Shown: one piece after another, positions 28,120-60,807 of the stretch
Numbering within the stretch: position 1 is the first letter of the stretch
Layout: each line of letters starts with the position of its first letter
Source: Ceratodon purpureus
Lineage: Eukaryota > Streptophyta > Bryopsida > Pseudoditrichales > Ditrichaceae
Direction: 5' to 3'
Assembly: GCA_014871385.1 (NCBI GenBank)
Contig: CM026426.1
Location: 63,240,324 to 63,304,323, forward strand
Length of the DNA stretch: 64,000 bases
Translations under genes and position numbers: made by a program
Notes under the pieces: generated by a model
Told to the model about the DNA's origin: nothing
The model's database searches: none
Seen by the model: only the letters and a program-made list of their open reading frames with translations

Positions 28120-29130
28120 TTCTTAGATGGAAATGTTTACGTAGATGAAAATTTTGAATTGGATGAAAACCATCACAAATAATTATGAATGTGCACATAT
28201 TAGGCCTAGTATTTTGGACGTGCTACCCTTCATTTTCCTTAATTTGAAACAATTTGTTATGCATGACAATAATTGTGCTGCATTAGAGAAATCAGAGAAT
28301 GATGCGCATCCAAAAATCATCAAATATTTTTTGGGCCTCCCTGATACGATTTTCTAAGAGTTCCATTGACATTATCTATGGATTAGATTGCGCAAGCTTC
28401 ATTTTTCAAAAGACCCAATTTATTATGACAATTAAAGATTTTATTCATGATTATAAAATGTTTTTCATATTAGTTATGGCATGGCTACAGGCACTCCATA
28501 TTACTTATATAGGCAGTACCATATCATTTTGTGGTCTTCCCACAACGATTCAAGAATGCGCATATTTGAATATGCGGATATTTTGCTTAAGTGACTTAGG
28601 ATTTTAAATAAACTGTATTATCTAAGCTTCTAGTGCTGCTGTAACACATGATAACAAGTATGTAGTATCTGTGTCACGTCACATCCAACCTCATGCTTTT
28701 CAAATTACATTTGACGGCGGAGGCCGTGCGTAACTCACATAGCTGAAGTCATTGTTGAATGATAAACTAGTCCAATGTAGCAAAGCGTCGATGTCAATGG
28801 GAGGCGAGGTGACAGTAACTGTACAGCTGTGATTATTTTTCTTATCGGCCGCCTCTTCCCTGTCCAAGTAACCGTAATCAGAATCATGACTTCGAAATCC
28901 TTGGCCACTAACGGTGTACTTGGAGCTCTACAATGCCTGAATACTCTTTTGCCTGCGCGTTTCACAGCCCACTTTGCTATATGTAATTTGTGTCTTCTCG
29001 CTTTGTGCTCATGGTTTCGTAGTTGTTGCTTTCATCCGCCCGCAATCGTCCCACCATATGTGCTTGTAACATGATCACAGTGTAGGTCCGTCTCTGTTGT
29101 TTAATCTCCACCGCATAGGTTAGACAGTAT
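28120..29130. other. No gene seen; region upstream of RING-like gene B
   Basis: Frames at 28,145-28,607 are AT-driven and unrecognised. The last 300 bp precede a plus-strand gene start at 29,140 and may hold its promoter; I see no convincing TATA box. Confidence 0.4.
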
Positions 29131-29139
29131 CACGCTGCC

Positions 29140-40204: not shown

Positions 40205-41590
40205 TGCCAAGAAGTCGTGAACGGACATCAAACTTACACGACATAGATCCCGAAGAAAATGACATCCCCGCAACATTAAAACACCAAAAAAGTCAAGGAA
40301 GGATTCTCCAGAGCAGTTTAGAGATCAAACTTTTTGATGACCCCTCACAATAATCTCAGTTAATTGTCACCGATTATCAAATTTACACGACATGGATCCC
40401 GAATAAAACAACATCCCCACAACATTTGAGCACCGAAAAAACCGATGTCGGGTCTTACAGAGCAGTTTAGAGATCAACCTTTCTGATGGCCCCTAACAAA
40501 ATTCTCGAATACTCGTTACCAAACACCAGACTTAGATGACACGAGAACCTGAATTTAAGACGTCCCCCAAGTTTTAAATTATCCCGAAAACCTCTGTCCG
40601 ATTCTACAGCACGATTCATAGTAGTTAAAACATCACCAGTCTTGCACTTTATGCGCAAATTTTAGCATGTAGAGTTAGTTTTCAACGTCAATATCATGAA
40701 ATTAGGCAAATTTGTCCATTAATTGGGTGATAATATACATGGAACCATACAATCCAATACACTACCGCACATATTGATGGTAAACATTTATGTCTGCTGG
40801 ATCCGATAGCTGAAAACCGAGACCTCGCGATCTCACCAGGGACAACGGATACGTACAAAACCTCCAATATAAATAACTCTAAAAATGATAAGTCGGATCC
40901 GACAGAACAATTTCATGTCCCGAGATAATGGAGACGCCTCCCCAGATTCGTTGAATGAAACAACAATTTTTGAAATTTAAATGTTCACGATATGAGGGTA
41001 CCACGATATTACTTGAACAAAAATACGAATCTCGGATCCGACAAAGCAATTTCCAGGTCCAAGTTTTACGAGACCCCTGCCCCAATTCGAGGACATATCT
41101 CACTGGACAACAGAGATTTTCAACAATAAAATTTGAGGGAGAGACAATACCACGATATTACTTGAACAAAAATACGAATGTCGGATCCGACAGAGCAACT
41201 TCGCCGTCCAAGTACTACGAGACCCTTGCCCAAAATTAGAGACATTCCTCACTAGACAACAGAGATTTTCAACAATCAAATTTGACGGATAGATAATACC
41301 ACGATATTACTTGAACAAAAATATGAATGTCGGATCCGACTGAGCAATTTCCAGGTCCAAGTACTACGAGACCCTTGCCCAAAATTGGAGACATACCTCA
41401 GTGGACTAGAGAGATTTTCACAATAAAATTTGACGGACAGATAATACCACGATATTACTTGAACAAAAATACGAATGTCGGATCCAACAGAGCAACTTCT
41501 AGGTCCAAGTTTTAAGTGACCCCTGCCCAAAATTGGAGACATACCTCACTGGACAACAGAGATTTTCCACATTAAAATTTCAGGGACAGA
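40205..41590 (+). repeat. 149-bp satellite, left part of the array (older, diverged units first)
   Basis: Clear units from about 40,880: CCACGATATTACTTGAACAA recurs at 41,001, 41,150, 41,299 and 41,447, that is every 148-149 bp. From 40,205 to about 40,680 there are strongly diverged 150-bp units (TTACACGACAT.GATCCCGA at 40,228 and 40,378; CAGAGCAGTTTAGAGATCAA) that align with the same monomer. The array is cut at 41,590 by a hAT-type insertion and resumes at 58,311 in the same phase. Confidence 0.9.
41583..41590 (+). repeat. 8-bp target-site duplication, left
   Basis: GGGACAGA, part of the satellite consensus GAGGGACAGACAATACC. It pairs with GCGACAGA at 58,311-58,318 (7 of 8). Eight bases is the hAT length. 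Confidence 0.8.
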
Positions 41591-41699
41591 CAGGGTTGTC
41601 ACACAGATCGGGGACGCTCGGGACTTCGGGACGTCCGGGGACATCCGCCAGCGCCCTCGGACGTTTTGTTACTTAGGGAAAAAAAACACCCGCACAGGT

Positions 41700-42110
41700 T
41701 TCACCCCGGGGTGAAACCACACCTTGAACGCGGGGGAGGGGTTGCGGGGGGAGGGAGCGCCCGTTGCCGCGGAGGGGGGGGGGGGGGCGGTCCGCGGCGA
41801 CCGCCTCTTGCCGTCGTCGGCGACGGCCCCTTGTTGTCGCCGCCGTGGGGGGGACATCCCTGGCGACAGCCCCTTGCCGTCGCAGTAGTGGGGGGCGGCC
41901 TTCGCCGAGGACGGCCCCTTACCGTTGCCGCGGAGGGGGGGGCCTTCCCCAACGACGGCCCCTTGCCGTCGCCGCGATGGGGGGGGGGGGGGGGTGGAAG
42001 GGCGTCCCTGAGGACGGCCCCTTCCGTCGCTGCGGAGGGGAGGCTTGCCGCGGCCGCGTCGAGGGGGGGGCGTCGGCGGCGACGGCCGTGACAACCCATG
42101 ATCTGACGGC
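41700..42110 (+). promoter_or_regulatory. GC-rich ACGGCC repeat block 1, upstream of hAT transposase
   Basis: Degenerate tandem units of about 50-60 bp with core GACGGCCCCTTGCCGTCGCC alternate with G-runs (14 G at 41,774; 16 G at 41,979). Open frames on both strands here are due to composition. A TATA-like sequence follows at 42,187. Confidence 0.7.
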
Positions 42111-42185
42111 CCCTCGCTTGACTTACGGCCTCAACGGCCGTCCTCCCTTGATTTTTAGGGCTTACTCCCTGGCATTTCATAAGAT

Positions 42186-42195
42186 GGATATAAAG
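42186..42195 (+). promoter_or_regulatory. TATA-like box of the hAT transposase
   Basis: GGATATAAAGGA lies about 75 bp after GC block 1 and 230 bp before the first clear coding sequence. Confidence 0.45.
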
Positions 42196-42417
42196 GAACC
42201 CTCCTCGAAGTTGGCATTACACTTTTGAATTGTACTCCATGTGCTACTAGTTGCACTAATATACGTGTGTATCTGTTGCATGGTGAACGGCGGCGTTCAG
42301 AAGTGTGTTGAATTGGAGCTTCTTCAGAGGCTCTAGTTCTCTTAAGGACTTGTTACCCCAATTTTTTGTAGTTTTTCGGGCGATCTATCAAGTGTAGTAA
42401 TCGCGTCTAGAATTTAC

Positions 42418-45385
42418 TCACCATGGTATACCAAAGTTCATGTGATTGATGCGGAGAAGAAGAAGATTGAGATGGTTCACTATATGCTATGCAAGAACAC
42501 TTTCGTAAATAGGATTGAGCGGATGCTCAGTCATTTGGGCTATGACAAAGTTCTAGGGGTACGGACTAGTGGTGTAGGTCGTTGCACTAATTTGTCACCC
42601 GCTATACAATCCTTGTTCAAGAATTGCGGTGGCATATTCCCCAACGACTCCCGAATATTCATGTCGGACGACATTACTTCCTCCGTGACTTGTGGCAATA
42701 TATCCCCGAGAGTGAACACTCCCATGGATGTGGACTCATGCGCTCAATCTAGGGTTTCAACTCCAAAGAATGAACCCGTCTTATTGGGTGAGGGTCTACC
42801 TTCCATTTCCACTCTTCTGGGGGAAGGTAGTGGACAGTTTCCTCCATTGAAGGCAAAGAGGCAATCTACCCTTCAAGAGGGCTTCGAAGAGACTCAGAGG
42901 CGGGAATGCGACAAAGCATGGGCCACATGTTTTTACGAGAACAGTATCCCGTTTAACGTGGCTCGGAGTGCCTCTTTCAAGGACGCGGTGAAGAAGACGT
43001 CCAACATGAAGAGATCATACACACCTCCATCTTTCCACCATCTCCGAACAAATTTACTAACCCAAGCAAGGACTGATTTGGAGACTTCCTTGAATGATAG
43101 GACTTTTTCCAGTGTTAGGAAGTACGGGGGAACGTTGGCCCTCGATGGATGGACTTCTGTTCAGCAGTCGCCCTCTAATAAATGCAATGCTGGTATCTCC
43201 TGCTGGTGAGTTATTTTTGGGAGCCGTTGACACGAGTGTGAAAGAGAAGGATGCCGTCTTCATAGCGACCGTCATTGAGAAGTTTATCCAACAAGTTGGA
43301 AAACAGAACATCATTCAAGTATGCTACGATAATGCTCAGGTGATGCTTAATGCCGGAAAGTTGGTCCAAGCACTCCATCCATCCATATTTGTCCAAGGAT
43401 GTGCTGCCCATGCGATGGACCTTTTGCTGGAGGACTGGAGTAAGATCTAGTGGGTCAAGGATCTACTAGATCGGGCTAAAAACTATGGTTAAGTTCATAA
43501 AGATAAGGCAAATGCCACTCTCGGTATATCAAAAGCACGAGGCAAAACTTAGCTTGCTGATGCCTAGTCAGACTAGGTTTGCATGGCACTACATTATGAT
43601 TTCGCGTCTACTGAAGGTTAGAGGAGCACTCGAGCAGAGCGTTGTGGATCCTCACTGGAGAAACTAGGAAACAAAGAAGACCTTATCTGCCCGTGACCAA
43701 GCAAAGATCTCACGTGATGTTAAGAGGGTTGTCTTGGATGAGGTTTTCTGGGAGCAATGTGAAAACTTCAAGTCGATGACGAGTCCCGTTGTATATGCCC
43801 TACGAGAGTTTGATGCAAAAGAATCGGCATTACGTAAAGCCTACGTTGTTCTCTGCAACCTTGAGAAGCATGTTCGCTCTTTACGCCATGAGCCCCTCAA
43901 ATTGGACTCTGACAATGTTGATCTGTGCGAGGAGTCATTCTATGAGCATAAAGCCATGGTCAAATCACCCTTACAGTGTGTTGCTGCGCTTCTAAACCCT
44001 TATCTTATTGACGATGAGGACCTTCACAATGATACTCATGCGATGGCATTGGCGAAGGAGGTCTTGTTGTCGATGGCTCCTGCTACATTGAAGGAAGTGG
44101 TTATTGAAGAGTTCTTCGCATTTCGTGAAGCTTATCCTCCGTTTCGTGATGTACGTGACTCCTCTAAGTCACAATTGCCGCCTTCTGGTTGGTGGGATAT
44201 ATACGGATCCATTGGTAAATTCATTTCTTCAATTGCAAAAAGGATTTTAGCTCAGCCCCTGTCTTCTTCTTTATGCGAGCGGAATTGGAGTAGCTACTCC
44301 TTTGTCCACGACAGGAAGCGAAACCGTTTACTTCCGGAAAGGGCTAATGACCTCGTGCTTGTGTATACAAATTCCAAGATAATTTCCTAGTCCAAGTTAA
44401 GTGCCTTAGGGAGGTTCCATGGGGAGTTGGAGGGGAAGGAGGATCCGAAGGCCGTGGAAACCGAGGACGTTGACTACTCTAGTGAGTCTGATGTTGATCT
44501 ACCCTTCGACGATCTATCAATTGACCCCCCTAATGACAACCCAGTTGACGACCTCGAGGTTTCATGGAAAGGGAAATCCTGTTGTTCTCCTGCGCTGATG
44601 GAGCGTGTTTTCGAGTATGATGATGTCGAAGAAGAAGGTACCAACGAGGAGGATATGATTCCTCTTGCTTCCCTTCCGAATGGAGACAGTTTACTAAACA
44701 GTGATAAGATTCTACGGGGAGGATCATCTCATACTACCGTAGGTTTGGTCGTAGCAAAGAAAGAGGAAGACCCCACCCTTCATACTTCTAAGGTTGTTTC
44801 TCCAGACTTTAACCGCATAAAGGAGGAAATGGTTCCACCCTCTACAAAGGAGGAAGTGCCCGTACCTGTACCGGGTGCGTCTCGGACATTGTTTGGAACC
44901 GCAAAGACTAGGGTCCAAGTTGGTGGGTTCGAAACGTCCACGAGGTTGGTTGACTTGTCTAAAAAAATGAAGGCTGATGCTAAGGTTGTTGAAGTAGCGG
45001 AGAAATGTAGGAAGAGATTGGCCCGAATCAACAAGCGGACTCGAGCATTCTCTCTACTGATGACGGACTACCAATTGGGCATCTCTTTGGGTAGAAGTTG
45101 GCTTTGGGAAAACCGGACATATTTCCTGAAAAACCCCCTGCTAGAGCCATGTTCAAGCGGAAAGCTGAAGATAAGACTCAGAAGGTGTTGGCTTTCAATC
45201 CTGGGAAGCCAAAAACTCCTTTGGATGTTGCGAATGGCCCAAAGAAATTCATGAACCCATTTGAGTCAAAGAAGAAGACTAAGGGGAGGGTGAAGAAGGT
45301 AAGCGAGAGCAATGGCGATGACGAAGACGATTCTTCCGGTCCTACTGGGGCTGAAGTGAAGGACGACAGCGATTATGTGGCATGA
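42418..45385 (+). pseudogene. BED/hAT transposase with acidic C-terminal extension
   Basis: SPWYTKVHVIDAEKKKIEMV and NRIERMLSHLGY form a BED zinc-finger remnant (W, Cys and His kept, one Cys not seen). PPSFHHLRTNLL, ALDGWTSVQ and RPLINAMLVSPAGELFLG are DUF659-type core motifs, with a frameshift at about 43,165. VCYDNAQVML and GCAAHAMDLLLEDW follow, then TAG at 43,448. TRFAWHYIMISRLL, TAG at 43,665, PLSSSLCERNWSSYSFVHD is the hAT dimerisation motif. After TAG at 44,388 the frame stays open for an acidic region (DVDYSSESDVDLPFDDL) and a Lys-rich tail reached by a shift near 45,095. Such enzymes cut and paste hAT ends in the nucleus. It is inactive as written, but is the likely driver family for this insertion. 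Confidence 0.85.
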
Positions 45386-45790
45386 TTGCGCACGATAGTT
45401 AGAAGGCAGCATTTCCAGTGCACCACCTTAGAATGCCACTCTTTTATGAATGTCCATTTCTAGAAACCATTATCATATTATATACATTTAAGCGGTGGTG
45501 CTTGCCTCTTCAATATTGTCCTCCACGTTGCGTACTTATGTTTACTTTGATTGTACTTCTTGCAATTTCTTTCTCGTAATGAATGTACAAAATCTACATA
45601 TGAAGTTCGATGCATCTAAGTACTAACAATTCTTTCAACACAAATGCAACTCCGAGAAAACATAAATGAAATTGTATCAAAACCAGAAGTAATTTTTGCA
45701 AGTACATATAGAGGTAGAGTAAAGTCCATACATCCGGCTACGCAACCAATATATATACTGCTCTAAATACGACTATCACCCAGTGTATTG
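45386..45790. other. Convergent spacer, likely shared 3' region
   Basis: AT-rich, with AATGAATG- and AATAAA-like stretches. No ORF. Transcripts from both sides should end here. Confidence 0.4.
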
Positions 45791-48700
45791 TCACATTAAC
45801 CGTAGTAATGCGGGTACCATGTCCAACGAAAATACTGTACTCAACGTCCATTGTTTGCATTTGACCTCCGAGTTTGGCGTCGCTCGCTTGGATGTGTTTT
45901 TTACCCTCCGATAATATTCTTCTTGCACGCGTTCCAACGAACGACGATTATCTTCCCCCCATTCAGGGTCATCTTCATAAGGACCGTCCCGATTGCGCTT
46001 CTTGGAATTCTTCCCGTCCCACAACTCCTTTGCCTTCTCAATCTTGGCTACTGTTTCTTGCACAATCTTCTCAATACTAGCGCGTGACCAACGAGAAGAA
46101 TTGCCCTCCGCACGTAGTGCCCTTCTCGAGTCACAAACTATTTTCTGAAGGGCATCGTCAGACTTCTTAATGATCACCCAGTAGTCTAGGTCCGAATATT
46201 TGAAGGATTCCTCTCTAAAAGTGCGACGATGCCGAATGCCTTCTTCTAGTTTGCTCAATACAAGTGCCCTCCCAACCGGGGTTTTGTCGTACATCTTGTA
46301 CTCATCAAGTTGCCCATAGTTCCGTTCTACTTCTCTTCTTTTACCATTGGCATCTACCACAACTTCCGGTTTTGGAAACCGGAAGAAGCGATTGCCATGT
46401 ACACTCCAATGTCCACCGAAGTTCCTACAAAAAAATTCTCGCTCCTTAGCATCCAAAATTTCAAGTGCCCTCATCTTCACCTCATAGTCGTGTGTCATCC
46501 ATGAAAGATTGTCCAATTCGGCATTGCCCGCCGTAGATAGTTGGTGAGTCATTGTCTCCGGGTTCGAAGCAAGTGATTTGCCCCAATCAAAATAATTCAC
46601 CTCTTTCTTAGGTAGTTGGTCTAGTGGTAAATTCCACCGATCAAACTCATGCCCAGGCGGCAATACGTGTTGTAGTCCCAGCATCTCGTAAAAATGTGAA
46701 CTAATTGGGGAGCGGCACATAACACACTGGTTGTTGTTTAAAGCAGCCTTCGCGATGCAGGTTATGTGGAACTTGTGATTACAATTTCCCATCTCAAAGG
46801 CCCCTTCCGGCCCAAAATATTGTTAACAAATGGGACACGTCTCCTTCAAATATTTGCTCCATCATTTCTGAACTATGTAATGTGCGCTCCATCATTTCTC
46901 CTACATTGCGCCATATCGTGATTTTTGTAGCATCCTCGCCGCCCTTGGCTGCTGCCTTGTTATACTTCTGTAAAGATGATTGGATAGCTTCTTCAACATC
47001 CATGGAAGTAATTGCACATTTCTTCATATCCTGTTGTGCTCTAGAGACTATTGTCTCCTTATCTCGTAGTTTGTGGACCCAACCAAGCCATGATAATGCC
47101 CTTGTGGAAGATGGTGTATCATCTACCATCTGTATAGTGGTCTTCAGCTTTTCCAGTTCTGTACGGGCCTCGTCTCTTTCCCTTCTAGCCACCTCCAAAT
47201 CCCGTAAAAGAATGTCTACTTCTTTTTAATCATCCATTGGCCCTTTTCCTCTATCCTCATGTCTTGGTGTTGGTTGGCTAGAGCCAATGTCCAATGGAAC
47301 TGGACCAGATGTCCTTTTAGACTTTTGAGACGCCATCCCTAGTGTGGCCCCATCTCCACTCTTATTGAGAATTTAGAAAGGCCGAGGTCATTGGAATCCT
47401 CATCATCGCTCAGTACTTCAATGACACGATCCTTTCCTTCCACCTTCACCGCTTCCTTCTTCACCCTAGGCCTCACTTCTTCTATTTTTCTTTTCTTCTT
47501 ATCTTTCGGGTGGTACTTTTCGCACTCTTCCAATTGTGCACGCCAACTCTTCTTCACATTGTCCAACCTTTCTGTCAATTTCTCGATTTGTTGTGTTGCC
47601 TCCATTGAATCCTTACTCAGCGTCACGTTCTCTTCCCCTAATTGCACACGGTCTTCCAGAAGAGGCTTAATGGAAGATACCAAAGTCTCAAAGCCGAGGG
47701 CACTGTGTATCATGCCCGGAGTGATACTTCCAAATGCATGAGCCATGTTTAGAAGATCTAGTGCCATAGCGCCTAATACGGAAGCCCCTTCTTTCAGGGT
47801 GTGTGCAATCTTCAACACATTATGAATTTGTTGCACTTCCTACGTGGTTTTTCCTACATCGCCTCCCTCCGTGGTATTCTCCAAGCCCCCACGCCGTTCA
47901 TCAGAGCACACCTCCGTCCATTTGATGCTAAAATGTAGTAACTCCTTCAATGATTCGTTGTTTGGCATTGACTTCATTTGCTCCATAATCTCCGAAATGG
48001 AATGAACTGCATCCTCTGTGCTATCTTCTTCGGTAGGCACTTGTACTATTGGCAAGGAACTTGGACCATCATCCACTGAACGAGGGTTGGAGCATCCAGC
48101 TTCCGCAGCCGTAAGATGTGTTGAACAGTCATTGTCCACCTCAACTTCCACCTCATCCACGGCTGCCTTGCCCTTTGTATCGTTGGAAGATTTCAGCGTG
48201 ATTCCCAAGGTCTGCTCTAGGAATAACAGGGACATTGGTTACCGTGGCAGTAGGGAACATCGTAGCGATCACATTGGAAATGGCAACGGGCTTCCTTTCC
48301 TCTGGACGATGTGGAGTTTCATTATGTAAGTTCTTTACTTCATTCTTCGGGGAAACTCTTCGGATGTGGCCACTGCCCCTTTCGGAACTCCGCTACGACA
48401 TTCTTTGCTTGCAAAGGATCGATCAGATATAAATCCGGAATGTCTCTTATCATCCATCCAATTTGCAACGGCCTGTCTTTTGTAGTGGGGTACGTACACC
48501 AACTAATCTTCCGCTTCAATATTAGCTCGGCATATACCATACTACAAATGGTATAATTGAAATGGCCTTTGGTAGGCTTACGTTGCTCAAAGAGAGTAGT
48601 CCAGACCTCATATGCTCGATGCAAGAAATGGTCATCCATGCATGACCAGGGCTTGCAGGTAAAACTCCGTGTGTTCAAATCGTGTTGTTCTCGGGGCCAC

Positions 48701-48906
48701 AACTTATCAATGTGATACATCTTCACATAGGTCTTGCACTCCTTGTGCGTCCAGTAAATGTCCCCCACAGATTCCCAGCCTTCTTCCGCTATGATGTTTT
48801 TGTTGTCTAGCATCTCCCACGAAAAGTTGTGGCATGCTCCCTTCGGCCTATTCTTCTTCCCGGTTCCTCCAATCTCATCATGTTGCGGATCCGCCATAAT
48901 AACCAC
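45791..48906 (-). pseudogene. Gene with CK-YVKM domain, coiled coils and RING-H2 site
   Basis: Start 48,906. Residues 1-188 hold AEEGWESVGDIYWTHKECKT followed by YVKMYHIDKLWP and VYAELILKRKISW, homologous to the gene at 53.5 kb. Next come an acidic region and helices (48,235-47,840, TAG, 47,836-47,339) with coiled coil EATQQIEKLTERLDNVKKSW and a Lys-rich part, then coiled coil ARRERDEARTELEKLKTTI. A one-base shift leads to YLKETCPIC, TAA at 46,823, then GNCNHKFHITC and QCVMC: spacing C-x2-C-x14-C-x-H-x2-H-x2-C-x10-C-x2-C, a RING-H2. A 290-residue charged tail follows (DRWNLPLDQLPKKEVNYFDW). It is convergent with the transposase, 406 bp apart. An E3 role is inferred from the RING spacing. Stops and shifts break it. 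Confidence 0.65.
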
Positions 48907-49001
48907 GTTTTAAACAAAAACGTTATGGTTTTGTTTTAAAGAAAACAAGGAGTTGATAAATGACGGTTTACAAAATAACGAATATAGAAAATTCAAAAAC
49001 T

Positions 49002-49019
49002 CCCCCCCCCCCCCCCCCC
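49002..49019 (-). repeat. 18-C run in the presumed 5' leader of the RING gene
   Basis: Eighteen C on the plus strand, preceded by AAAATTCAAAAACT and followed by ACAATAAAAATGGACCCC. The kinase gene's leader has a matching 18-C run with similar flanks at 57,471. Confidence 0.85.
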
Positions 49020-49135
49020 ACAATAAAAATGGACCCCATCTCCTCACCCCCTAGTACCAACAAGCTCCCAACTGAATTAAGAAACTGTAGCAGTACGAAG
49101 GGGACTATTGACGAGAGTGAAGTGAGGAAGATGGA

Positions 49136-49640
49136 GACGGCCGTCGCCATATATGGCGACGGCCTCCAATCCTATGGCCGTCCCCCCGAGCCTAGGGCCG
49201 TCGGCCCCCGACCCTACGGCCGCGGTCAATGGCCGTCGTCCCGATCCTGACGACGGCCGTTGGGGGCCGTCGGGTCGGGGGCCATGGTTACGGCCGCGGG
49301 GGTCCGTGCCTCCGCGGCCGTCCGATCCGGCCGTGTCCTTGGCGACGGCCGAACGATGGCGGCCCTCGCTGAGGGGACGGCCGCGAAGACGGCCCACGAA
49401 GGAGCGGCTGCCGGCCGTCTGATCGTGGCCGTCTCCGCGGCCGTCGTTGTCTGATGGCGGCCGACCGCGCGGTGACGGCCGCGAAGACGGCCCCGTCGGC
49501 GACGGCCCGCGGCCGTCTTATCGGGGCCGTCTCCAAGGCAAGGGCCGTTTGATCACGGCCGTGGTCGAGGGGCCGTCTCCGCGGAAAGCCCCTGGCGGAG
49601 ACGGCCCCAGGCCGCGGAGACGGCCCTCGGCCGCGGAAAA
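49136..49640 (-). promoter_or_regulatory. GC-rich ACGGCC repeat block 2, upstream of the RING gene
   Basis: Very dense (A)CGGCCG/GGCCGT motifs on both strands. GCCATATATGGC at 49,146-49,157 could serve as a TATA-like site facing the RING gene, about 240 bp from its start. Confidence 0.6.
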
Positions 49641-52430
49641 CTTTGCCGCTCCCTTTTTAAAATCAAAAAAAAATCAAAAAACATATAATGTTAGAACTTC
49701 CGACCACATATTAAACTAAAACAATTAATTTCTTTCACCAATTAAAATCAGAACAGCATTTAATGTTAACATGAATTTAAAGACTTCATGGTATGCAAAC
49801 CATCTAAATTCTTCAACAAGTCATTATTCCGTACACTCCCACCAACTTAATGTATGTGTCATTTATTGGAATCTTTCGTTTCGTTATTTTTTTCCATATA
49901 TTTCATACAGTCTACCATCCCATTCTAGAAGTTCTCTGCTGAAATCCAAGTCAATTAAACCCGTTTAAGAATATTTAATCTTAATAGTCCTCCATCTTCA
50001 TATTCTCCGCTTTGATTTTTTTTTATTTTTTTTAAAAACAGAAATACTTCTACTATTCTTTCACTAAATGGCTTCATATTCTCAATTTAATTCGGGTTAC
50101 CATCTCTTTATGTACTTTTAACGTTCCTCCCTCTCCACAATTTCCACTCTCGAATATGTTTTTCATTTACTTTTTCTTTATTTTCCTCTATGTTTTTTCC
50201 CCTCTATGTTATGCCCTTTTTTTTTATGTGTAATTCGTCTAATCTACCACTGTATCCCTTGAAGTTCCTAAAATGTTCATGTTGAATTTCTTTCTTTTAT
50301 ATCATTTCGAACGTTCCTATTTCAATTTATTTCCTCCATGACCCATGTTAAATAATATTTTAGTAATTCTAGCACTATTCCACCATACCCGTTCTCCATT
50401 TACTGAAATTCGTTAGATCTTGAATATGTATTTATATTTGGTTCTTTCACATGCTCCTGAGTCCTCCATCATTCGAGCTTGTTTTTTCTTGTTTCTCTTT
50501 CCTTCTGCTACCCATTCCACTACTCTTTTATCTTGATTTTAATTTTTTGGAAGGTGATATTCATCCCCCTCGTTACGTTCATGGCCTTTCAAACATTTTA
50601 TTACCATAATATTTAAATCCGGTCATTGTTTCATTGTAAATCTCTACATCTGCCACTCTTTCAATATACCCCTTCAATTACGTATAACATCGCAACCCTC
50701 AAGCAACCACACTTTATTTTGGTATTTAAACATTCCTTTATAATTTCTTGCACTCCTCCATTTGTTAAATTTTATACCTCCCATCGCACAACTCTATTAC
50801 CCTACTGCTTTAGTTTTTATTGACTATTGTACCCCTCTTTCATATATATGTTTTGAACTCCCCATGTATCACTACGTCATGGCCGTCGTCTATTTATTTT
50901 AATAATTATAATTTCGTTAGTTTCCCTCTCTACCTCTACTTTTTTCTTATAATATTTCGATGGTTCACTCATTTGTTTACTTATGAATATACTTCTACTT
51001 CACAATCTTCCCCAAGTATAGCAAAATATATAATTTTTTAATGTTACAACCGTCGTCATTATAGTTCTAATATTCATATCCATCCTCAACCTTCTTATTC
51101 TTTGTGTTGTTGATTAATTTAATTACTTACTATTTTGAAACAATACCACCCCACCAAACATTTTTCATCAGTATTTTTAGTATCCTAATAATATATTTAT
51201 TTCTAAAATTATGTCCCATCAATATACGTTCCCGTGTAATAATTTTATTTCCGTACTTGTAGTTCCAAGTATTTCACGCCGTGCCTTTTTAATTTTTCCT
51301 TGGTACACTATATGTCTCTAGGAATTATCGTGTTTGTTTAATTTTCTCATTGTGTCATTAGTTAGTGATTACTTTTGTACGTATATACTATACAAGTTGG
51401 AATCCAATTTTATATTTCTATTTATGTTAAAGTGTATGTATAAACATATATTCCAATAGTATATAATGTAAATGTCTTTTTTAATTTATTTATTATATTT
51501 CATATAAGTTACAACTCAATTCTGGGCGTGAGAAACTAGAATTGTTTATAAAAACAATGATTTCAATTTTATTCGTTCACAAATTTCCATTATTCAATGA
51601 CAATTGAATGTTTTATTTTAATTTTTTGTTTTATATTATTATCCCTCTTTCATCTTATAATGTGAACTACTATTTATGTTTTTTTAATATTATCAGAATA
51701 CTTGGGTATGGGAGTGTGTAAAATAAAAGACATAAAAGTGCAAGAAGAGTTTTTATATTTCATAAAACTCTAAACTGGGCGTTAGAAATTAGAATTGGTA
51801 ATAAAAACAATGATTTGAGTTTTATTTCTCCCCTTATTTCCATTATTCCAAGACATTGAATGTTTCTTTTTTTTTAATTTACTATTATCTCTAGCTTATC
51901 TCATAATCTAAACTACTATTTATGTTTATTTTTTATTTTATCAAAATACTAAAGCACGGGAGTATGTAAAATTAAAGAAATAAAAGTGGGAGAAAACATT
52001 CCATAAAAAATTAGAGTTAAAGAATTCAAGTAAAAAATTTCATTGTATACCACTAATCGAGAAGAAACTGGATCTGTTTTTCTAAGAGATTTATGAAACG
52101 GTAAACCGGTAAAATATAAATGCAAATCTCTTAACTATGTAAACATAATCTGCACCGCATGAAAAACCAAGTGTTTACATGAATTTATGCTGTGAATTAC
52201 ATTTAATGCATTTTGACCACGATGTTCCTTTTATCATCTCGTTGTTGACATTTACTCTTCCGATTCGTTATTATAAAATGTTAATTTATTACCATTTGCT
52301 AAAACATGAGTAACTTGGTTTCTTTAAATGAAAATCGGTTCAAAATGTTTTAGTATACCCACAATGTTTACGGTTCTTTCCATTCAATAGGATATATATT
52401 CTTCTTCATAAACGTGTTCACATTATTTGT
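49640..52430. other. AT-rich internal spacer of the hAT insertion
   Basis: Low-GC DNA without genes. At 51,490-52,000 a unit of about 252 bp is tandemly duplicated: GGGCG(T)GAGAAACTAGAATTG at 51,525 recurs at 51,777, with (A)ACTACTATTTATGTTT and GGGAGTGTGTAAAAT-type blocks following in both. Confidence 0.7.
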
Positions 52431-52595
52431 AGATCCTAGGGGGTTATCGACCCCCAAAGAACCAAAATATCACATAATTCATTGGATCCCAATTCTAAAC
52501 GTCGACCCCACCTCCCCGATCACAGGATCTTCAGGACATTCCCCACAATATCCGAGATATGTCAGAATTTTCCATTTTGGAGCAGATACGCTTTG

Positions 52596-52621
52596 CAAAC
52601 AATCCCAAGTGGGATTGTTTG
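52596..52621. repeat. Perfect 12-bp hairpin
   Basis: CAAACAATCCCA-AG-TGGGATTGTTTG. It is followed directly by a long purine tract (GGAGAGAGAAGAGTAGGGGA type, to about 52,680) and a C-rich tract to 52,735. Confidence 0.9.
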
Positions 52622-52734
52622 GGACGAGAAGGAGAGAGAAGAGTAGGGGAGGAGAGGGGGGGAGGAGAGGAGAGAAAACACAAGGGGAGGTGAGTTTCTT
52701 GGACCCTCCCCCCCCCCCTCCCCCCCCCCACCCC

Positions 52735-53104
52735 CACGGCCATCCGCGCGGACGGGGGGCCGTCGCCCTCGGCAGTCGGATCTTCTCCGCCAAGAAGATC
52801 CTACGGCTGCGGGCGACGGCCCCCGACCGCGGGGACGGCTATCTCCGAACCCGCGGTTGGAGGGGCCGTCCGCGTGGTCGGCCGTCCCGACTGCGGGGCG
52901 GCGGTCCACCGAGGCACCCTTTCGAGAGCGTTCGCGGCCGCATGACCAGTCGCGACTGTGATCCTGAATGGCCGCGATGGATCCCGCGACGGACCACTTA
53001 CGGCCATTGGATTCTCCATCGGCCGAGATCCAACGGTTGTAGGGGGGCCACCGTTTGACCTAACTGGCCGTCTAGGGGTTCGGGCCAGCATAAAATGCTG
53101 GCCC
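52735..53104 (+). promoter_or_regulatory. GC-rich CGGCC repeat block 3, ending in a hairpin
   Basis: Dense CGGCC/GGCCG to about 53,070, then a perfect hairpin GGGCCAGCAT-AAA-ATGCTGGCCC at 53,082-53,104. The loop CATAAAATG is TATA-like. It lies upstream of the plus-strand gene at 53,440. Confidence 0.6.
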
Positions 53105-53439
53105 TGCATCCTTTTTTTTCACTTGGGTGCTCGTGCTACATGTGCTGGATTTACTTCAGCTCAGTTGCGTTCCTCCAAGCTTTTTCTACTTCCCCACAGG
53201 TTATCGTGGGATTGTGTTCAGGGTTATCAGGACCGTTTGTTGGTTATTATGAAACCAACAAACTAGTGCTTCATACCTACAGTTTTTTGGCAGGAGTTCG
53301 GGGTTTTGTTTTGGTCCTTATGCACTAGATATATACGAGATTAAATCAACTTTTATACAGTGGGGAGAAGTTACAGCCGTTGTTACAAGGTTGGTTCAAT
53401 ACACGGTATTCACAAGTACTCGCTTACCTGACATTTGCC

Positions 53440-54932
53440 ATGCCTCGTTACGACCAGGGAGGATCCTCGACTCCAAAAAGAAACACCCCTAGGATCCATA
53501 CGCTACAAATGATCCTGATTGCGTAGCAGAGTTTGGATGGGAGGAGGAGCCATCACCATGGAGGATGGTTACTTGCAAGGAATACGTGAAGATGAAGCAC
53601 CTCATGAAGTTGATCCCAGTACATCTACGTACCGAGGCTGCGGAGAAACATGCAACACGCGGTGAGATCAGGGTCGACAATTGTGAAAGTAATCATTTCA
53701 CTATTAGATATAACGAGATTTTTCAAGCAGCACAAATCCAAAACTCCCGACGTCATATTATGTTGTATTCGAATATGGCAATGGTGTGGGCGGAGATAGT
53801 CTTACACAAGAGGGTCGACTGGCACACAATCTCGGGCCTGAGGACAGATAGAATGAACAGAGAAAGCATGGATCTTGACACAGCCTGGGTTGGACATAGC
53901 GATTGTCCTCCACTACATATTTCAAACCGTCGGAGTCCACCAGCACAAGATGCTGAAATACAAACTCTAGCCATCGAATATAATGATGAAGAACAGGAGA
54001 GACGTCGTCTAAGCTATGATGATGATGACAACTATCGAGGACGTTGCTCAAACAAAAATCCCAGGAATCGCAGAGGGCGTCGTGGCAGAGAGTCATCACA
54101 TACCAACCATGAGGAGTATGGACAATGCTCTGCCCACGTGGGACACTATTGGCGAGATTATTAAGACGTGGGACCCCACGAACGAGGCCATGGCTACGGG
54201 AAACCCGAAGGAGTGCCCATAACCTCTGACTTCGCGTTGGATGTGTATGGCACCTTTGGGGGAAGTCCTTGGCCGGATTATGCAACGGGATCAAGATACT
54301 ATTACGACGGCTGGTCGGAAATACCGAGTCCTCTAAGGAGTGCTAGTCCGCGCCATCAAACACCTGCAAGAGAGGTACCTCACAGTTATTCCCTAGATCG
54401 CGAAGGAGTTGCGCAGAGACTAGGACGTGATCATTATGGAACGCCCCCTCCATACCGCGGATATGGTGGTCATGCTACCCCATTTGCCCTTTTTGCAAAA
54501 GATGATTACAGATCATCTTCACAGACTCCGCCTGGAATATTTCCTCCACCTCTAGATTATCACAAAGACGGTACTGATCACAATAGCGGAGAAAACCGCA
54601 ACGTAATTCATCCCGATGACGGAGTACCACCTCCTCCTTTTGGATACCCTCCCGGTCGAGTTGTAAGAGATAGCTATTTTGAGGAAGAATGAGAGTTGGA
54701 GCAGACAAGGAAAAATTATGTACAACAAATGGAGAATCATGTGTTTCACCTTAGACGGGATAATCGAAGATTGATGGAGGAGAGAGAGAGACTTTTGAGA
54801 GCCTCGACAAATTCTACAGGGCACGGGCCACAAGAAACGTACGATCGAGGAGGTCCAAGCAAACTCCCCAATGATGGGAACTATTATCATCCATATGACT
54901 ACAATGGATTAGGGTGGAGGGGAGACTATTAG
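53440..54932 (+). pseudogene. Gene with CK-YVKM domain, disordered middle and coiled-coil tail
   Basis: ATG 53,440 reads MPRYDQGGSSTPKRNTPR; after a one-base shift near 53,490 the frame DPYATNDPDCVAEFGWEEE stays open to 54,932 except for TAA at 54,162 and TGA at 54,690. VTCKEYVKMKHLMKLIP and YSNMAMVWAEIVLHKRVDWH match the N-terminal domain of the RING gene at 48.3-48.9 kb. Then come an Asp/Arg-rich region, a Pro/Tyr/Gly-rich disordered part (GYGGHATPFALF, PPPPFGYPPGR) and a coiled coil (ENHVFHLRRDNRRLMEERER). There is no zinc site. The domain is not one I can name. It is convergent with the kinase-like gene, as the transposase is with the RING gene. Confidence 0.6.
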
Positions 54933-54939
54933 AATGGGG

Positions 54940-55860
54940 TGCATGGTAGTACTTTCTACAGCATCGGAGCGTACCGAGTCTTTAATGTGGACATCGCATA
55001 TTACAAATTTACAGCATAAAGTTACAGATGCAAGCATAGTGTGTACGTAGTTTGTAGTTTTGTAGGTGGAGGTTTAAGATGTACGGACTCAAGAAAATTG
55101 GCACGTGCCACATATTGCAAATGGAATAGATAGAATTAGTGGAATAGAGTGTAGTTGTGTTGTCTTCTATATTGTAGTTGTCTTGACATTTGAAATGAAT
55201 TTGTCTTTTTAATCTTCTCCTGACGGTATTCTAAGTGCACATTAATATCAATATCACTATTTTTCAAATGACAACTTACCATTGACATGGGTTACGACCG
55301 GTTGAATATTCTAAATCTCAAGACAAGTATGCACAATAATTTTCAAACATATTTTTTGCTAAATTAATAAGAATATCGTGAATGATCCTTTTTGAGGGAT
55401 GCATATTTATACTTAAGCTATTTGTTTGTACCGAGGATTATGAGCAATCATGTTATGCGGCCCTTACGCTTTTGTCTTCACAAAAAGAACTTCAGTATAC
55501 GCTTGCCAATATTTCTAAGAGTAAAACGTACAAAGCATAATGGTACAATTCACATATCACATCATTTTCATAATTAGAATTGAGACTATTGAGTTTTAGA
55601 TGGATGTGTGGAGCAAATCCTTTTTCCAAAGAGTACGAGCGGCAGAAATAGACCAATCTCAGTACACGAGACCAGATTTGAACCAAATGCAAATAAAATT
55701 TATAAACAAAATATTGACCGATGTACAAAAATTGAGATTCCAACATCTCATCATAGTTTAGAATCTAAATACAACTATTCACTACTGAGAGCTATGCCCA
55801 CCGTCTGGTAAGAAAAAAAACATTATGAAATTATAGAAATTCAAAAAGTTGGATATGCCT
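54940..55860. other. Convergent spacer
   Basis: AT-rich, no supported ORF; presumably the 3' regions of both flanking genes. Confidence 0.4.
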
Positions 55861-55867
55861 CTCCATA

Positions 55868-57268
55868 TCAGGACCCCACGCCGTAGTGCTCGTTGGGAGT
55901 GGGCCTGTTGTGTGTATCTCTGAAACGGTTAACAAGATGTTCAGGTCCACCTATCCTTCCCCTATTGTTTTGGCAAACTTTATCAAGATAACCTTCGAAA
56001 ACTGTAGCGAGGTCTCCGATACTCTCGAAATGCCGTGTTTCTACTAGCTCCGCTTCGTGGTATGCCGTGCACATGTTGCCGCCGTTGATCTTTGCCGCAA
56101 TCTTTGCAGTTGCGAAATCCTCCGATGCAGCCGTCAAATCTGGAACGATTCTAATATCTTGGCTTTCCTTGTGTACGTATACCACGCGAGGATCCACCCA
56201 GTATCGCCTCCTCATAGTCTCCTCCATCTGATGGGCACTCTCAAGAATCCAAGGCGACCTTCTGTTCTCCTCTATCTTTGTCATCAAGCCCGAATCACAA
56301 ACCCTGATGTAGATCTTGGACTCATCTTCCGGAAAGTGAAGTAGGATGTTGTCCGGTGACAAGTCATTGCGGAGGTAACCATATTTGTGCACAGCATCTA
56401 TGATGTTACACAATGCCCAAGCAAGCTCTGTACGCTTACTTCGGAAAAGTCGGAGACGCTTTCCTTGAATCGGACTGTCCTCTGGATTCCTATTGAAGAT
56501 GTAGTGGATGTGGAGATCATCCAGGGCCTCATTGTCCCTCCGTAGCATAGCTCGAAGGGTTCCACCGTTCCACCAGTACATGAATCCGACATGTTCCCTC
56601 TGATGAATGGCCATGAAGCAGAGGACACCAGGATGGGGAATCCTTATCGCAAGAGATTCGTTGTTGTGGTCCACACGTGCCAAATCCGGCCTCATAGACC
56701 AATTGAGCGGCCGTTTCTCAGGAAACTCCCAGAATGGTGGGATTTCCGGGTTTCCCTCGATACAAACCCTACGTATGGTAGCATAACCACCCCTCTGAAC
56801 TTCCTTGTCCAAGTAATAGAAAATTGCAAAGTCTGCCAAGATAGTTAAATGCCGTCTATGTAGGTCGGCCGCCGTCTCCCTCCCAATTGGAGAATCCCAC
56901 CATTTAATAGAGCAACGTCGATGCTTTCTTAAGCTTAGGGGCGCCATTAGTCTCTGGAAGCAATCTGCCTTTGAAATAACATCCTTGAAGGCCTCGACTC
57001 CCTCGCTTTGCTCCCTTGCATACTTAGACACAACGTCACGAGCATTCCATAACGCATCATGTGCACGCTGTGACACGAAATGAAGGTAACCAGGCTTCTG
57101 TCTCTCTGAATGCCAGTGCGGATGCATCAAACGATCCATAATCTTTTGCTCCATCTCTGACTTGAATTTCTTGGGCCCATCTTCCTCATACCGAACGTAA
57201 CAACTGTTCAATGAAGGGTGTTCCGCTCGTAAAAATCCACGATGAATGCCGGAACGAAATCCTTGCAA
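55868..57268 (-). CDS. Intact 466-residue protein-kinase-like protein
   Basis: This is the longest uninterrupted, recognisable ORF of the window. The C-terminal two thirds look like a kinase fold: a Gly-rich stretch QRGGYATIRRVCIEG (about 158-172), a hinge-like MYWWNGGTLRAM (230-241), helix LAWALCNIIDAVHKYGYL, catalytic loop RNDLSPDNILL (300-310, with the HRD His replaced by Asn-adjacent residues but Asp and Asn kept) and DSG (325-327) at the DFG position. The usual VAIK lysine is not evident. Residues 1-155 are helical and unrecognised. ATG 57,268 is chosen as the first in frame after a leader with an 18-C run and a TATA-like box at 57,613. A role in phosphorylating the element's own or host proteins is possible; with changed motifs it could be a pseudokinase. 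Confidence 0.7.
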   Translation of the reverse strand: MQGFRSGIHRGFLRAEHPSLNSCYVRYEEDGPKKFKSEMEQKIMDRLMHPHWHSERQKPGYLHFVSQRAHDALWNARDVVSKYAREQSEGVEAFKDVISKADCFQRLMAPLSLRKHRRCSIKWWDSPIGRETAADLHRRHLTILADFAIFYYLDKEVQRGGYATIRRVCIEGNPEIPPFWEFPEKRPLNWSMRPDLARVDHNNESLAIRIPHPGVLCFMAIHQREHVGFMYWWNGGTLRAMLRRDNEALDDLHIHYIFNRNPEDSPIQGKRLRLFRSKRTELAWALCNIIDAVHKYGYLRNDLSPDNILLHFPEDESKIYIRVCDSGLMTKIEENRRSPWILESAHQMEETMRRRYWVDPRVVYVHKESQDIRIVPDLTAASEDFATAKIAAKINGGNMCTAYHEAELVETRHFESIGDLATVFEGYLDKVCQNNRGRIGGPEHLVNRFRDTHNRPTPNEHYGVGS

Positions 57269-57470
57269 CGTAAGCTCGGTTTGTCATCATATTTGTCCAC
57301 CCATTCCCCCACATTCTTCTACTTCTCGTTCTTCGGCATCGTGGAAAGCCTTCAAGGCTTCAAGCAATCGAATACGCAACTCCAAATAAACCCTCAATTC
57401 CCACAAAGAGGAATCAGAGCAATTGAAACTAAAAAGGTTTTGAAAAAAATCGTTTAAAAATTCGAAAAGT

Positions 57471-57488
57471 CCCCCCCCCCCCCCCCCC
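57471..57488 (-). repeat. 18-C run in the presumed 5' leader of the kinase-like gene
   Basis: Same length as the run at 49,002, with similar flanks: AAAATTCGAAAAGT before and AAATAAAAGACCCC after. Confidence 0.85.
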
Positions 57489-57611
57489 AAATAAAAGACC
57501 CCTTTCCTCCCGGTGAGATCGACCAACGGAGAAGGAGCGAATCCCCGAGTAGTAGCAATTGGCCTCACTCGAAATGAAAGAAAAAAGATAAAAAATGAAG
57601 AGGCGGCTTCC

Positions 57612-57622
57612 CCTTATATAGG
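57612..57622 (-). promoter_or_regulatory. TATA-like box of the kinase-like gene
   Basis: CCTATATAAGG on the minus strand, about 345 bp before the ATG and just inside GC block 4. Confidence 0.5.
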
Positions 57623-57634
57623 CAAAGCAGACCT

Positions 57635-58090
57635 CGCGGCCGTCCCCACGGCCGTCCCCGCGCCCGTCGGATCTACGGCCCCCGCGGCTGTCGGATCGTG
57701 CGCGACTCCGCCTGAAGGCACCGGCCGTCCGATCGTACGGCGGCGTCAGGGGATGGAGCCAGGCGACCACGCGGTCAGCCACGCGGACGGCCGTCGGATC
57801 TCGTGGCCGTCCCCGTGGCCGACCACGGAGACAGCCGCAAGATCGGACGGCCCTCCCAAGCCGACCATGGCGGCCGGGGGCCATTGGGGAACGCCCAATC
57901 GCCGCGGCCGACCGCGGGCCGTTGGATCCCGCGGCCGTCCACGTGGCCGTCTCGGCGATTAGCCACAGCGACGGCTGCCGGATCGGAAGGCCGAGGAGGG
58001 CCGATCATAGCAGACAGCTCGCGATGAGCCAATACGGCCGCATCTTGGCCGTTGGATCGATGTGCGGCCGTCTCCGACGACTACGCAGTC
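57635..58090 (-). promoter_or_regulatory. GC-rich CGGCC repeat block 4, upstream of the kinase-like gene
   Basis: Dense GCGGCCGT/ACGGCCG motifs, like block 2. Open frames on both strands here are composition artefacts. Confidence 0.65.
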
Positions 58091-58310
58091 GTCTTTGCAT
58101 TCCTCCCCGCGATCTGATTGCCGAGATGGAGCGTGGTGTCAAGATAGGCCAATCGGACGGTTGGGAGATGTTTTTACCCCCCTCGTGTAGGAAAATTATT
58201 ATCGCAACGTAATTATCGAGCGTCGGGGACGCCACGTCCCGGCCAAGGGACGTCCGGGATAGACGTCCAGACGTCTAGAGCCAGGTCCGACGTCTATTTA
58301 AACAACTCTG

Positions 58311-58318
58311 GCGACAGA
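58311..58318 (+). repeat. 8-bp target-site duplication, right
   Basis: GCGACAGA, matching GGGACAGA at 41,583-41,590 with one change. The satellite continues directly with CTATACCACGATATTAC. Confidence 0.8.
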
Positions 58319-60807
58319 CTATACCACGATATTACTTGAACAAAAATACGAATGTCGAATCTGACAGAGCAACTTCCAGGTCCATGTTTTACGAGACCAC
58401 TGCCCAAATTGGGAGACATACCTTACTCGACAACAGAGATTTTCAACAATAAAACTTGAGGGACAGAGAATACCACAATATTGCTTGAACAAAAATACGA
58501 ATGTCCGTTCCGGCTGAGCAATTTCCAGGTCCAAGTACTACGAGACCCGTGCTATAATCAGGAGACATACCTCATTAGACAACAGAGATTTTCAACAATA
58601 AAACTTGAGGGACAGAAAATACCACCACATTACTTAAACAAAAATACGAATTTGCGATCCGACAGAGCTACTTCCAAGTCCAAGTTTTACGAGACCCCTG
58701 CCCATATTCGGAGACAAACCTCACTGGACAACAGAGATTTTCAACAATAAAATTTGAGGGACAGACAATACTACAATATTTCTTGAACAAAAATATGACT
58801 GTCGGATCCGACAGAGCAACTTCCTGGTCCAAGTTTTACGAGACCCCTGCCCAAATTCGGAGACATACCTCACTGGGCAACAGAGATTTTCCACAAACAA
58901 ATTTGAGGGACAAACAATACCACGATATTACTTGAATAAGAATACGAATGTCGGACCTGACAGAGCAACTTCCAGGTCCAAGTTTTACGAGACCCCTGCC
59001 CATATTCGAAGACATACCTCACTGGACAACAGAAATTTTCAACAATAAAATTTGAGGGATAGACAATACCACGATAGTACCTGAACAAAAATACAAATGT
59101 CGGATCCGATAGAGCAACTTCGAGGTCCTAGTTTTTCAAGACCCTTGCCAAACTTTTGGAGACATACTTCACTAGACAACAGAGATTTTCAACATTAAAA
59201 TATGAAGGACAGATAATACCACGATATTATTTGAACATAACTTCGAATGTCGGATCCAACAGAGCAACTTCGAGGTCCAAGTTTTACGAGACCCCTGCCC
59301 AAATTTGGAGACATACCTCACATGACAACAGCAATTTTCCACAATAAAATTTGAGGGACAGACAATGCCACCGTATTACTTGAATAAAAATACGAATGTC
59401 GGACCCGATAGAGGAGCTCCTTGGTCCAAGTTTTAAGAGAAACGTGCCCGAATTCGGAGACATACCTCACAGGACAACAGAGATTTTGAATAATAAAATT
59501 TGAGGGACAGACAATACCACAATAATACTTGAACAAAAATACGAATGTCGGCACCAACTGAGCAATTTCCAGGTCCAAGTACTACGAGAGCCCTACCCAA
59601 ACTCGAAGACATACCTCACTTGACAACAGAGATATTCCACAATAAATTATGAGGAATAGATAACACCAAGATATTACTTGAACAAAAATAGGAATATCGG
59701 ATCCGACAGAGCAACTTCCAAGTCCAAGTTTTACGAGACCATTGCCTATATTTGGAGACATACATCACTGAACAACAAAGATTTTCAACAATAATATTTA
59801 AGGGACAAATAATACCACGATATTACTTGAACAAAAATACGACTGTCGGATCCGACAGAGCAACTTCCTGGTCCAAGTTTTACAAGACCCCTGCCAAAAT
59901 TTGGAGACATACCTCACTAGACAACAAAGATTTTCCACAATAAAATTTGAGGGACAGACAATACCATGATAATACTTGAACAAAAATACGAATGACGGAT
60001 CGAACAAAGCAAGTTCGATGTCCAAGTTTTACGAGACCACTGCCCTTATTCGGAGACATACCTCACTGGACAATAGAGATTTTCAACAATAGAATTTGAG
60101 GGATAGACAATACCACGATTATACTTGACCAAAAATACGAATGTCGGATCCGACAGAGCAACTTTCAGGTCCAAGTTTTACGAGACCCGTGCCATAATCT
60201 GGAGACATACTTCACTAGACAACAGAGATTTTCAACAATTATTTGAGAGACGGATAATACCACCATATTACTTGAACAAAGATACGAATGTCTGATCCGA
60301 CAGAGCAACCTCTTGATCTAAGTTTTACGAGACCCTTGCCCAAATTCGGAGACATACCTCACTGGACAACAGTGATTTTCAACAATAAAATTTGAGGGAC
60401 AGACAATACCACGATATTACTTGAACAAAAATACAAACTTTGGATCTGACAAAGCAACTTCGAGGTCCAAGTTTTACAAGAGCCGTGCCCATATTCACAT
60501 ACATACCTCACTGGACAACAGAGATTTTTAACAATAAAATTTGAGGGACTGACAATACCTGGATATTACTTGAACAGAAATTCAAATGTCGGATCCGACA
60601 AAGCAACTTCCAGGTCCAAGTTTTACGAGACCCGTGCCCCAATTCGAAGACATACCTCACTGGACATCAGAGATTTTCATCAATAAAATTTGAGGGACAG
60701 ACAATACCACGATATTACTTGAAGAAAAATACGAATGTTGGATCCGACCAGGCAACTTCGAGGTCCAAGTTTTACGAGACCCATGCCCAAATTTGGAGAT
60801 ATTCCTT
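58311..60807 (+). repeat. 149-bp satellite, right part of the array, about 17 units
   Basis: Monomer blocks in order: ACAATACCACGATATTAC, TTGAACAAAAATACGAATGT, CGGATCCGACAGAGCAACTT, CCAGGTCCAAGTTTTACGAG, ACCCCTGCCCAAATTCGGAG, ACATACCTCACTGGACAACA, GAGATTTTCAACAATAAAAT, TTGAGGG. Starts are every 149 bp (58,325, 58,474, 58,623 and so on). Units differ by scattered substitutions. Long minus-strand frames here are satellite artefacts. Confidence 0.95.

Follow-up and report, generated by a model that had tools for sequence, protein, structure and literature searches.

Transposons of the hAT superfamily are usually thought of as small elements with one gene, and Ac of maize has one gene. MuDR of maize, which belongs to another superfamily, has convergent genes driven from its terminal regions. 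Several published systems have hAT ends or accessory genes. Maize Ac macrotransposons are large hAT-ended units with 8-bp duplications (PMC9910405); maize Pack-hAT elements are hAT-ended units that hold genic DNA, have 8-nt duplications and are called non-autonomous (PMC8903248); and captured gene pieces are published for maize Ds (PMC3260210) as well as for Pack-hAT elements (PMC8903248). Closest as precedents are two from fungi, hAT7 and IS3EU, which are DNA transposons with accessory genes, of which TET-carrying IS3EU has transposase, TET/JBP and alpha-kinase genes and hAT7 has TET/JBP (PMC12730594). Here we describe an insertion of 16.7 kb in Ceratodon purpureus (Bryopsida; assembly GCA_014871385.1, contig CM026426.1), within a stretch of 64,000 nucleotides at positions 63,240,324 to 63,304,323 of the forward strand, the whole of which is called the window. 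The insertion has hAT-like ends and carries a broken hAT transposase gene together with three further genes, and it is known from one copy, within this 64-kb window. We read it as a decayed copy of a multi-gene hAT transposon, immobile by its own transposase, and place the probability of this reading at roughly 0.53.

The element resembles Ac/Ds-type plant hATs in its 8-bp target duplication, its short ends of what we take to be the CAGGG type, its hAT C-terminal dimerisation region and its motif repeats near the ends, and it may resemble MuDR in having convergent genes driven from terminal regions. It differs from Ac, which is 4.6 kb long (PMC3260210), in its 16.7 kb, its four genes and its motif arrays, which lie inside the element as well as near its ends; by our own comparison, its array motif GACGGCC and the Ac site AAACGG (PMC3260210) both hold ACGG, a tentative likeness. 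Whereas Ac macrotransposons have recognisable Ac or fAc ends around other DNA, no inner ends appeared here in the two stretches scanned, and in contrast to Pack-hAT elements the promoter motif of the cargo genes is that of the transposase gene in the same element. The 8-bp duplication also differs from the 7-bp and 6-bp duplications of hAT7 and IS3EU (PMC12730594), and no TET/JBP or alpha-kinase family is among the Pfam matches of the element, whose kinase match is weak and is to Pkinase. Accessory genes in DNA transposons, even kinases, are already known, and the present combination would be new if other copies confirm it. In the literature as covered by titles and the starts of abstracts, where coverage of subscription journals is thin, we recognised no plant hAT with the same gene set; the word hAT is absent from the main text of a 2019 review of giant eukaryotic transposons, a review whose scope is elements above 20 kb.

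Insertion, target site and ends

The window contains a satellite with a tandem unit of 149 bp at ~40.2-60.8 kb, and this satellite is interrupted by the element. The features that define the insertion are as follows.

40,227-40,506, no strand: satellite
40,999-41,590, no strand: satellite
41,583-41,590, no strand: left copy of the target site duplication, GGGACAGA, in the satellite register
41,591-41,600, plus strand: left terminal inverted repeat, CAGGGTTGTC
41,591-58,310, no strand: insert in the satellite, 16,720 bp
58,301-58,310, minus strand: right terminal inverted repeat, CAGAGTTGTT, 8/10 match to the left
58,311-58,318, no strand: right copy of the target site duplication, GCGACAGA, 7/8 identical to the left copy
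58,313-60,806, no strand: satellite

The satellite anchors bordering the insert lie at 41,445 and 58,322, and the distance between them (16,877) equals one unit of 149 plus 16,720 plus 8. Deletion of either 41,591-58,318 or 41,583-58,310 leaves spacings of 148-150 over the rejoined satellite, as in the original prediction of a 16.7-kb insertion whose removal together with one 8-mer restores the satellite phase. The sequence matches the local satellite consensus up to 41,590 on the left and again from 58,311, and eight positions occur at both junctions; the target duplication is 8 bp, as for the hAT superfamily, with one mismatch between its copies. The insert begins with CA, two bases that agree with the satellite as well, and phase and identity alone permit an overlap of 8 to 9; the duplication was set at 8 because this length gives ends of the form CAG...CTG. 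Those ends are short terminal inverted repeats of the CAG...CTG type, which, like CAGGG-type ends, we take to be a hallmark of the superfamily, and the expected match to hAT ends is supported.

The locus is a real insertion, with the signature of a single event by a transposase with 8-bp staggered cuts. Satellites are prone to misassembly in general, and an assembly artefact could in principle have joined unrelated sequence into the array; the retained 149-bp register, the 8-bp duplication and the matching ends on both sides argue against misassembly, which fits least among the rivals and is extremely improbable.

Within one mismatch of CAGGGTTGTC there are five sites in the window, all of them in the insert: besides the left end itself there are four, where chance would give ~1. 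Among pairings with minus-strand end-like sites, the best target match is that of the outer ends (7/8), and the second-best pairs 41,591 with 41,853 (targets 6/8, ends 9/10, 272 bp apart): the inverted CAGGGATGTC at 41,853-41,862 on the minus strand is followed by GCGACAGC, a 6/8 match to the left target copy. This pair was ruled out as the border of the insert because the satellite does not resume after 41,862. The 41,853 site lies inside the first motif array (P1, below) and is perhaps a miniature-element-like coincidence. Another internal site, one mismatch from the left end, occurs at 53,219-53,228 on the plus strand. The subterminal stretches of both ends have in common the 12-bp GGGACGTCCGGG in direct orientation (among 500 shuffle pairs, 1 reaches its score); an inverted match between them is weaker, its score being reached in 18 of 500; GGGACGTCCGGG was not used as support because its core is palindromic.

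Four genes and the GACGGCC arrays upstream of them

As had been claimed, the element carries three cargo genes besides the transposase gene. They are a RING-H2 gene, a gene that shares an N-terminal domain with it (the N-domain gene), and a kinase-like open reading frame (ORF). An array rich in GACGGCC lies upstream of each gene.

41,591-42,170, no strand: array P1, upstream of the transposase gene, 7 GACGGCC, 71% GC; then TATAAA at 42,189 and TGCTAC at 42,242
42,421-45,385, plus strand: hAT transposase gene, broken; Pfam DUF659 (4.4e-22) and Dimer_Tnp_hAT (2.2e-9)
43,138-43,155, plus strand: contains transposase motif DGW
43,322-43,336, plus strand: contains transposase motif YDNA
from 44,274, plus strand: transposase motif CERNW
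45,791-48,906, minus strand: RING gene, broken; N-domain at 48,343-48,906, coiled-coil-like middle, RING-H2 at 46,712-46,837, basic C-terminus
48,988-49,045, minus strand: RING gene 5' leader, homologous to that of the kinase gene, with a long single-base C tract
49,140-49,640, no strand: array P2, upstream of the RING gene, 21 GACGGCC, 74% GC; then TGCTAC at 49,092 (minus strand)
49,650-52,400, no strand: AT-rich spacer, longest open frame 79 codons
52,735-53,085, no strand: array P3, upstream of the N-domain gene, 5 GACGGCC, 70% GC; then CATAAAA at 53,089 and TGCTAC at 53,134
53,440-54,931, plus strand: N-domain gene, broken; N-domain as in the RING gene, charged low-complexity region, short coiled-coil-like end
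55,868-57,268, minus strand: kinase-like ORF, open over 466 codons from a TTG; first ATG at 57,154 (codon 39)
57,457-57,509, minus strand: kinase gene 5' leader, homologous to that of the RING gene
57,625-58,110, no strand: array P4, upstream of the kinase gene, 10 GACGGCC, 71% GC; then TATATA at 57,620 and TGCTAC at 57,557 (minus strand)

Counted on either strand, GACGGCC has 46 occurrences in the 16.7-kb element and 0 in the remainder of the window (47.3 kb), and 45 of the 46 occurrences fall in four clusters (7, 23, 5 and 10), one upstream of each gene. With the narrower array borders listed above the counts are 7, 21, 5 and 10; the motif is the commonest 7-mer common to the four arrays and none occurs outside, and the expectation per array, from 500 first-order Markov simulations each, has means of 0.26-0.49 and maxima of 3-4. 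In addition, TGCTAC lies 45-66 bases past a TATA-like box in 4/4 promoters. In windows of 0-80, 20-80 and 30-90 bases from the box, any 6-mer was common to four random window stretches in 10, 2 and 1 of 5000 sets, respectively, and to the members of shuffle sets in 15, 25 and 13 of 5000. The leaders of the two minus-strand genes, RING and kinase, share 86% identity over 58 bp (E 1e-10 and 1e-12 in two comparisons).

We read the arrays and leaders, from their sequence, as what would be one control system for four genes, an arrangement that would be hard to reach through one-by-one capture of unrelated host genes. Such capture, in which an ordinary hAT would have taken up unrelated host genes as Pack-type cargo and later decayed, has precedent in maize Pack-hAT elements with captured genes (PMC8903248); kinase-like and RING domains are both common among host genes, and genes of similar layout occur outside the element at 29,119-30,660 and 24,013-22,500. 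It leaves unexplained, however, the GACGGCC array on all cargo genes and on the transposase promoter, the common leader of two genes and the common domain of two genes, and neither the motif nor any blastn match to the element was found in the rest of the window, which leaves the two outside RING-type genes without arrays and leader. We consider capture improbable; the shared arrays and shared leader favour a multi-gene hAT, and the cargo genes look like probable element parts rather than random passengers.

The transposase gene, which the original prediction had correctly placed inside the insertion, starts ~0.8 kb inward of the left end, and its DUF659 and Dimer_Tnp_hAT matches were obtained on broken frames. 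Its 656-codon core contains at least 5 stops or frameshifts and its 330-codon C-terminal extension at least 2; the extension is acidic/basic and runs from ~44,394. The motifs DGW, YDNA and CERNW presumably mark the places of the catalytic D, D and E, an assignment by likeness to hAT motifs rather than by alignment. An autonomous, active element would need an intact frame; with its transposase broken, this copy is presumably unable to drive its own movement.

The RING-H2 finger matches zf-RING_2 at 1.3e-7 (32.3 bits vs a cutoff of 27.3) with the in-frame stop inside the finger read as X, and by this profile it has zinc ligands of the C3H2C3 type. At least 6 disabling events were counted in the 1032 codons of the RING gene and at least 3 in the 497 codons of the N-domain gene; the coiled-coil-like regions of both were judged by eye. 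The N-domain common to the two genes has 30% identity over ~105 residues (blastp 1.7e-8 among 14 sequences) and is recovered by tblastn against the window (1.6e-7). In Pfam, the RING gene copy matched 0 families, and the N-domain gene gave only an unrelated match of 0.53 further on. The original prediction had overlooked the decay of the transposase, RING and N-domain genes, the relationship between two of the cargo genes, the motif array common to four promoters and the weakness of the kinase assignment.

The genes outside the element at 29,119-30,660 (plus strand) and 24,013-22,500 (minus strand) are related to each other (among 14 sequences, blastp over 155 residues gave 2e-16 to 6e-16). 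In both, an N-terminal domain is followed by a coiled-coil-like middle and then a RING-like C-terminus, with a zf-RING_2 match of 0.05 for the 29,119-30,660 gene, and the pair perhaps belongs to a dispersed RING-type gene family of the genome. The element RING gene resembles them in layout only, plus weak RING matches (blastp 0.03-0.05). An identity of the element N-domain with their N-terminal domain was unsupported in a comparison of two-sequence profiles (hhalign probability 0.2%, E 0.26).

The third cargo gene had been announced as an intact kinase-like ORF, of which the openness stands (466 codons from TTG) and the rest is qualified: the kinase match is weak and the start is doubtful, the first ATG being codon 39 and the leader ATG frame ending at a stop and lying in another frame than the ORF. 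Motifs found by eye are RND..N in place of HRD..N and DSG in place of DFG. Against solved structures the best E was 0.0057, with the aligned stretch around the catalytic loop. The other genes have accumulated at least 16 disabling events in 2515 codons (5/656, 2/330, 6/1032 and 3/497), a rate that predicts ~3 events in the 466 kinase codons; zero then has P ~0.05 (Poisson, neighbours' rate), and with the leader ATG frame included the count becomes 1 event in 489 codons. Openness as a sign of selection on the kinase-like ORF is weakened by this P value, and is suggestive at most.

Relatives were also sought in other collections. For the kinase-like ORF, viral contigs gave 3 pattern matches and prokaryote genome contigs 4, with 0 confirmed in either, and phage records gave none. 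In viral contigs the C-terminal ORF of the RING gene had 11 pattern matches and the N-domain pair 43 (0 confirmed), and the C-terminal ORF of the transposase had no pattern match; in PHROGs, 5/5 proteins matched 0 families. These misses say little because the collections are bacterial, archaeal and viral and the element is eukaryotic.

Mirrored modules, rival origins and a possible regulon

The genes lie in a mirrored layout, in which each of two modules holds an array with a plus-strand gene facing a minus-strand gene with its array, and the modules are separated by the AT-rich spacer, where GC is 24-33% in the 500-bp bins from 50,001 to 52,500. Because the modules mirror each other around such a spacer, the strongest rival is a macrotransposon, in which two linked hATs of the same family (~8 kb and 5.6 kb) and 3 kb of AT-rich host DNA were moved together by the outer ends and the inner ends were lost later or had been defective already. 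Common descent of the two modules would explain the shared arrays and leaders, and published macrotransposons of Ac, with footprints or 8-bp duplications, measure 10.3 and 28 kb (PMC9910405), while another is documented as moving ~100 kb (PMC3260210). However, in the inner stretches 49,550-50,150 and 52,250-52,800 matches to the ends are at chance level (1 and 1 vs 0.9 and 0.8 expected, in a scan that would overlook strongly degenerate ends). The right module, moreover, has no recognised transposase, and its genes do not duplicate the left-module genes in full. On balance we regard a macrotransposon as unlikely, though as a serious competitor.

The abruptness of the switch to AT-rich sequence at ~49,650 and back at ~52,600 might instead mark the nesting of another mobile element, of a different kind (49.4-57.7 kb or part of this), in a smaller hAT. 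A long-range inverted pair at 49,368-49,393 and 57,627-57,652 (26 nt, 81%) could be taken for the ends of that element. The pair sits in arrays P2 and P4, however, where a repeated motif would yield such a match; the 6 bases around its arms gave no target duplication (7-10 bases long, 1 mismatch allowed), and the right module has the arrays and leader of the left. Nesting therefore seems very unlikely. The spacer also contains a head-to-tail two-copy repeat of ~257 bp, at 51,490-51,746 and 51,750-51,994, with 77% identity.

Several points weigh against reading the locus as a decayed multi-gene hAT transposon. The basis is a single copy; its mirrored layout is also what a composite of two elements would give; and gene capture by plant hATs is published (PMC8903248). 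The kinase-like ORF falls under the Pfam cutoffs both for Pkinase (5.6e-4, 19.8 bits vs a cutoff of 31.7) and for PK_Tyr_Ser-Thr (0.0013), and its structure model, with a predicted local distance difference test (pLDDT) score of 32, is useless. The TGCTAC test was partly post hoc, with the RING gene box CATATATGG placed by eye where the pattern scan listed none, and the TATA-like anchor of the N-domain gene is merely CATAAAA.

If the multi-gene reading is correct, the transposase of the active element would have cut out and pasted the whole unit via its outer ends, and the GACGGCC arrays would have served as a shared control region of the four genes, possibly bound by the transposase itself as docking sites. 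A role of the arrays in docking and as a common promoter is plausible in view of published binding preferences. The transposase of Ac binds AAACGG repeats near the Ac ends (PMC3260210), proteins with hAT-derived DNA-binding domains often favour CGG or CGC triplets, and the motifs of four hAT-encoded proteins are matched in subterminal parts of the elements that encode them (PMC8097297); the preference is not general, because some insect hATs have AT-rich motifs (PMC8097297). The RING-type, N-domain and kinase-like proteins may have acted as accessory factors for element expression or against host silencing. For the RING-type and kinase-like proteins, a service to the element is guessed from the genes they lie with.

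More tentatively still, the locus could represent a giant hAT lineage with a stable set of four genes (transposase, RING-type ligase, N-domain adaptor and kinase-like protein), in which one array, present near both ends as well as internally, would be both docking site and shared promoter and the element would hold a small regulon of its own against host silencing; we rate this extended proposal as possible but doubtful. If a hAT with three coordinated accessory genes is real, it raises the question of whether DNA transposons use ubiquitin-ligase- and kinase-like proteins against silencing.

Other features of the window

No RNA families or tRNAs were found in the window. Outside the element, two long open frames of 339 and 261 codons at 34,338-36,187 on the minus strand, with no Pfam match up to E 1, perhaps represent an unrecognised mobile-element gene. 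An ORF at 10,129-11,514 on the plus strand matches Transposase_21 (tnp2) at 7.5e-6 (25.7 bits, slightly under the Pfam cutoff of 28.6), and is preceded by a cysteine-rich frame at 8950-9402.

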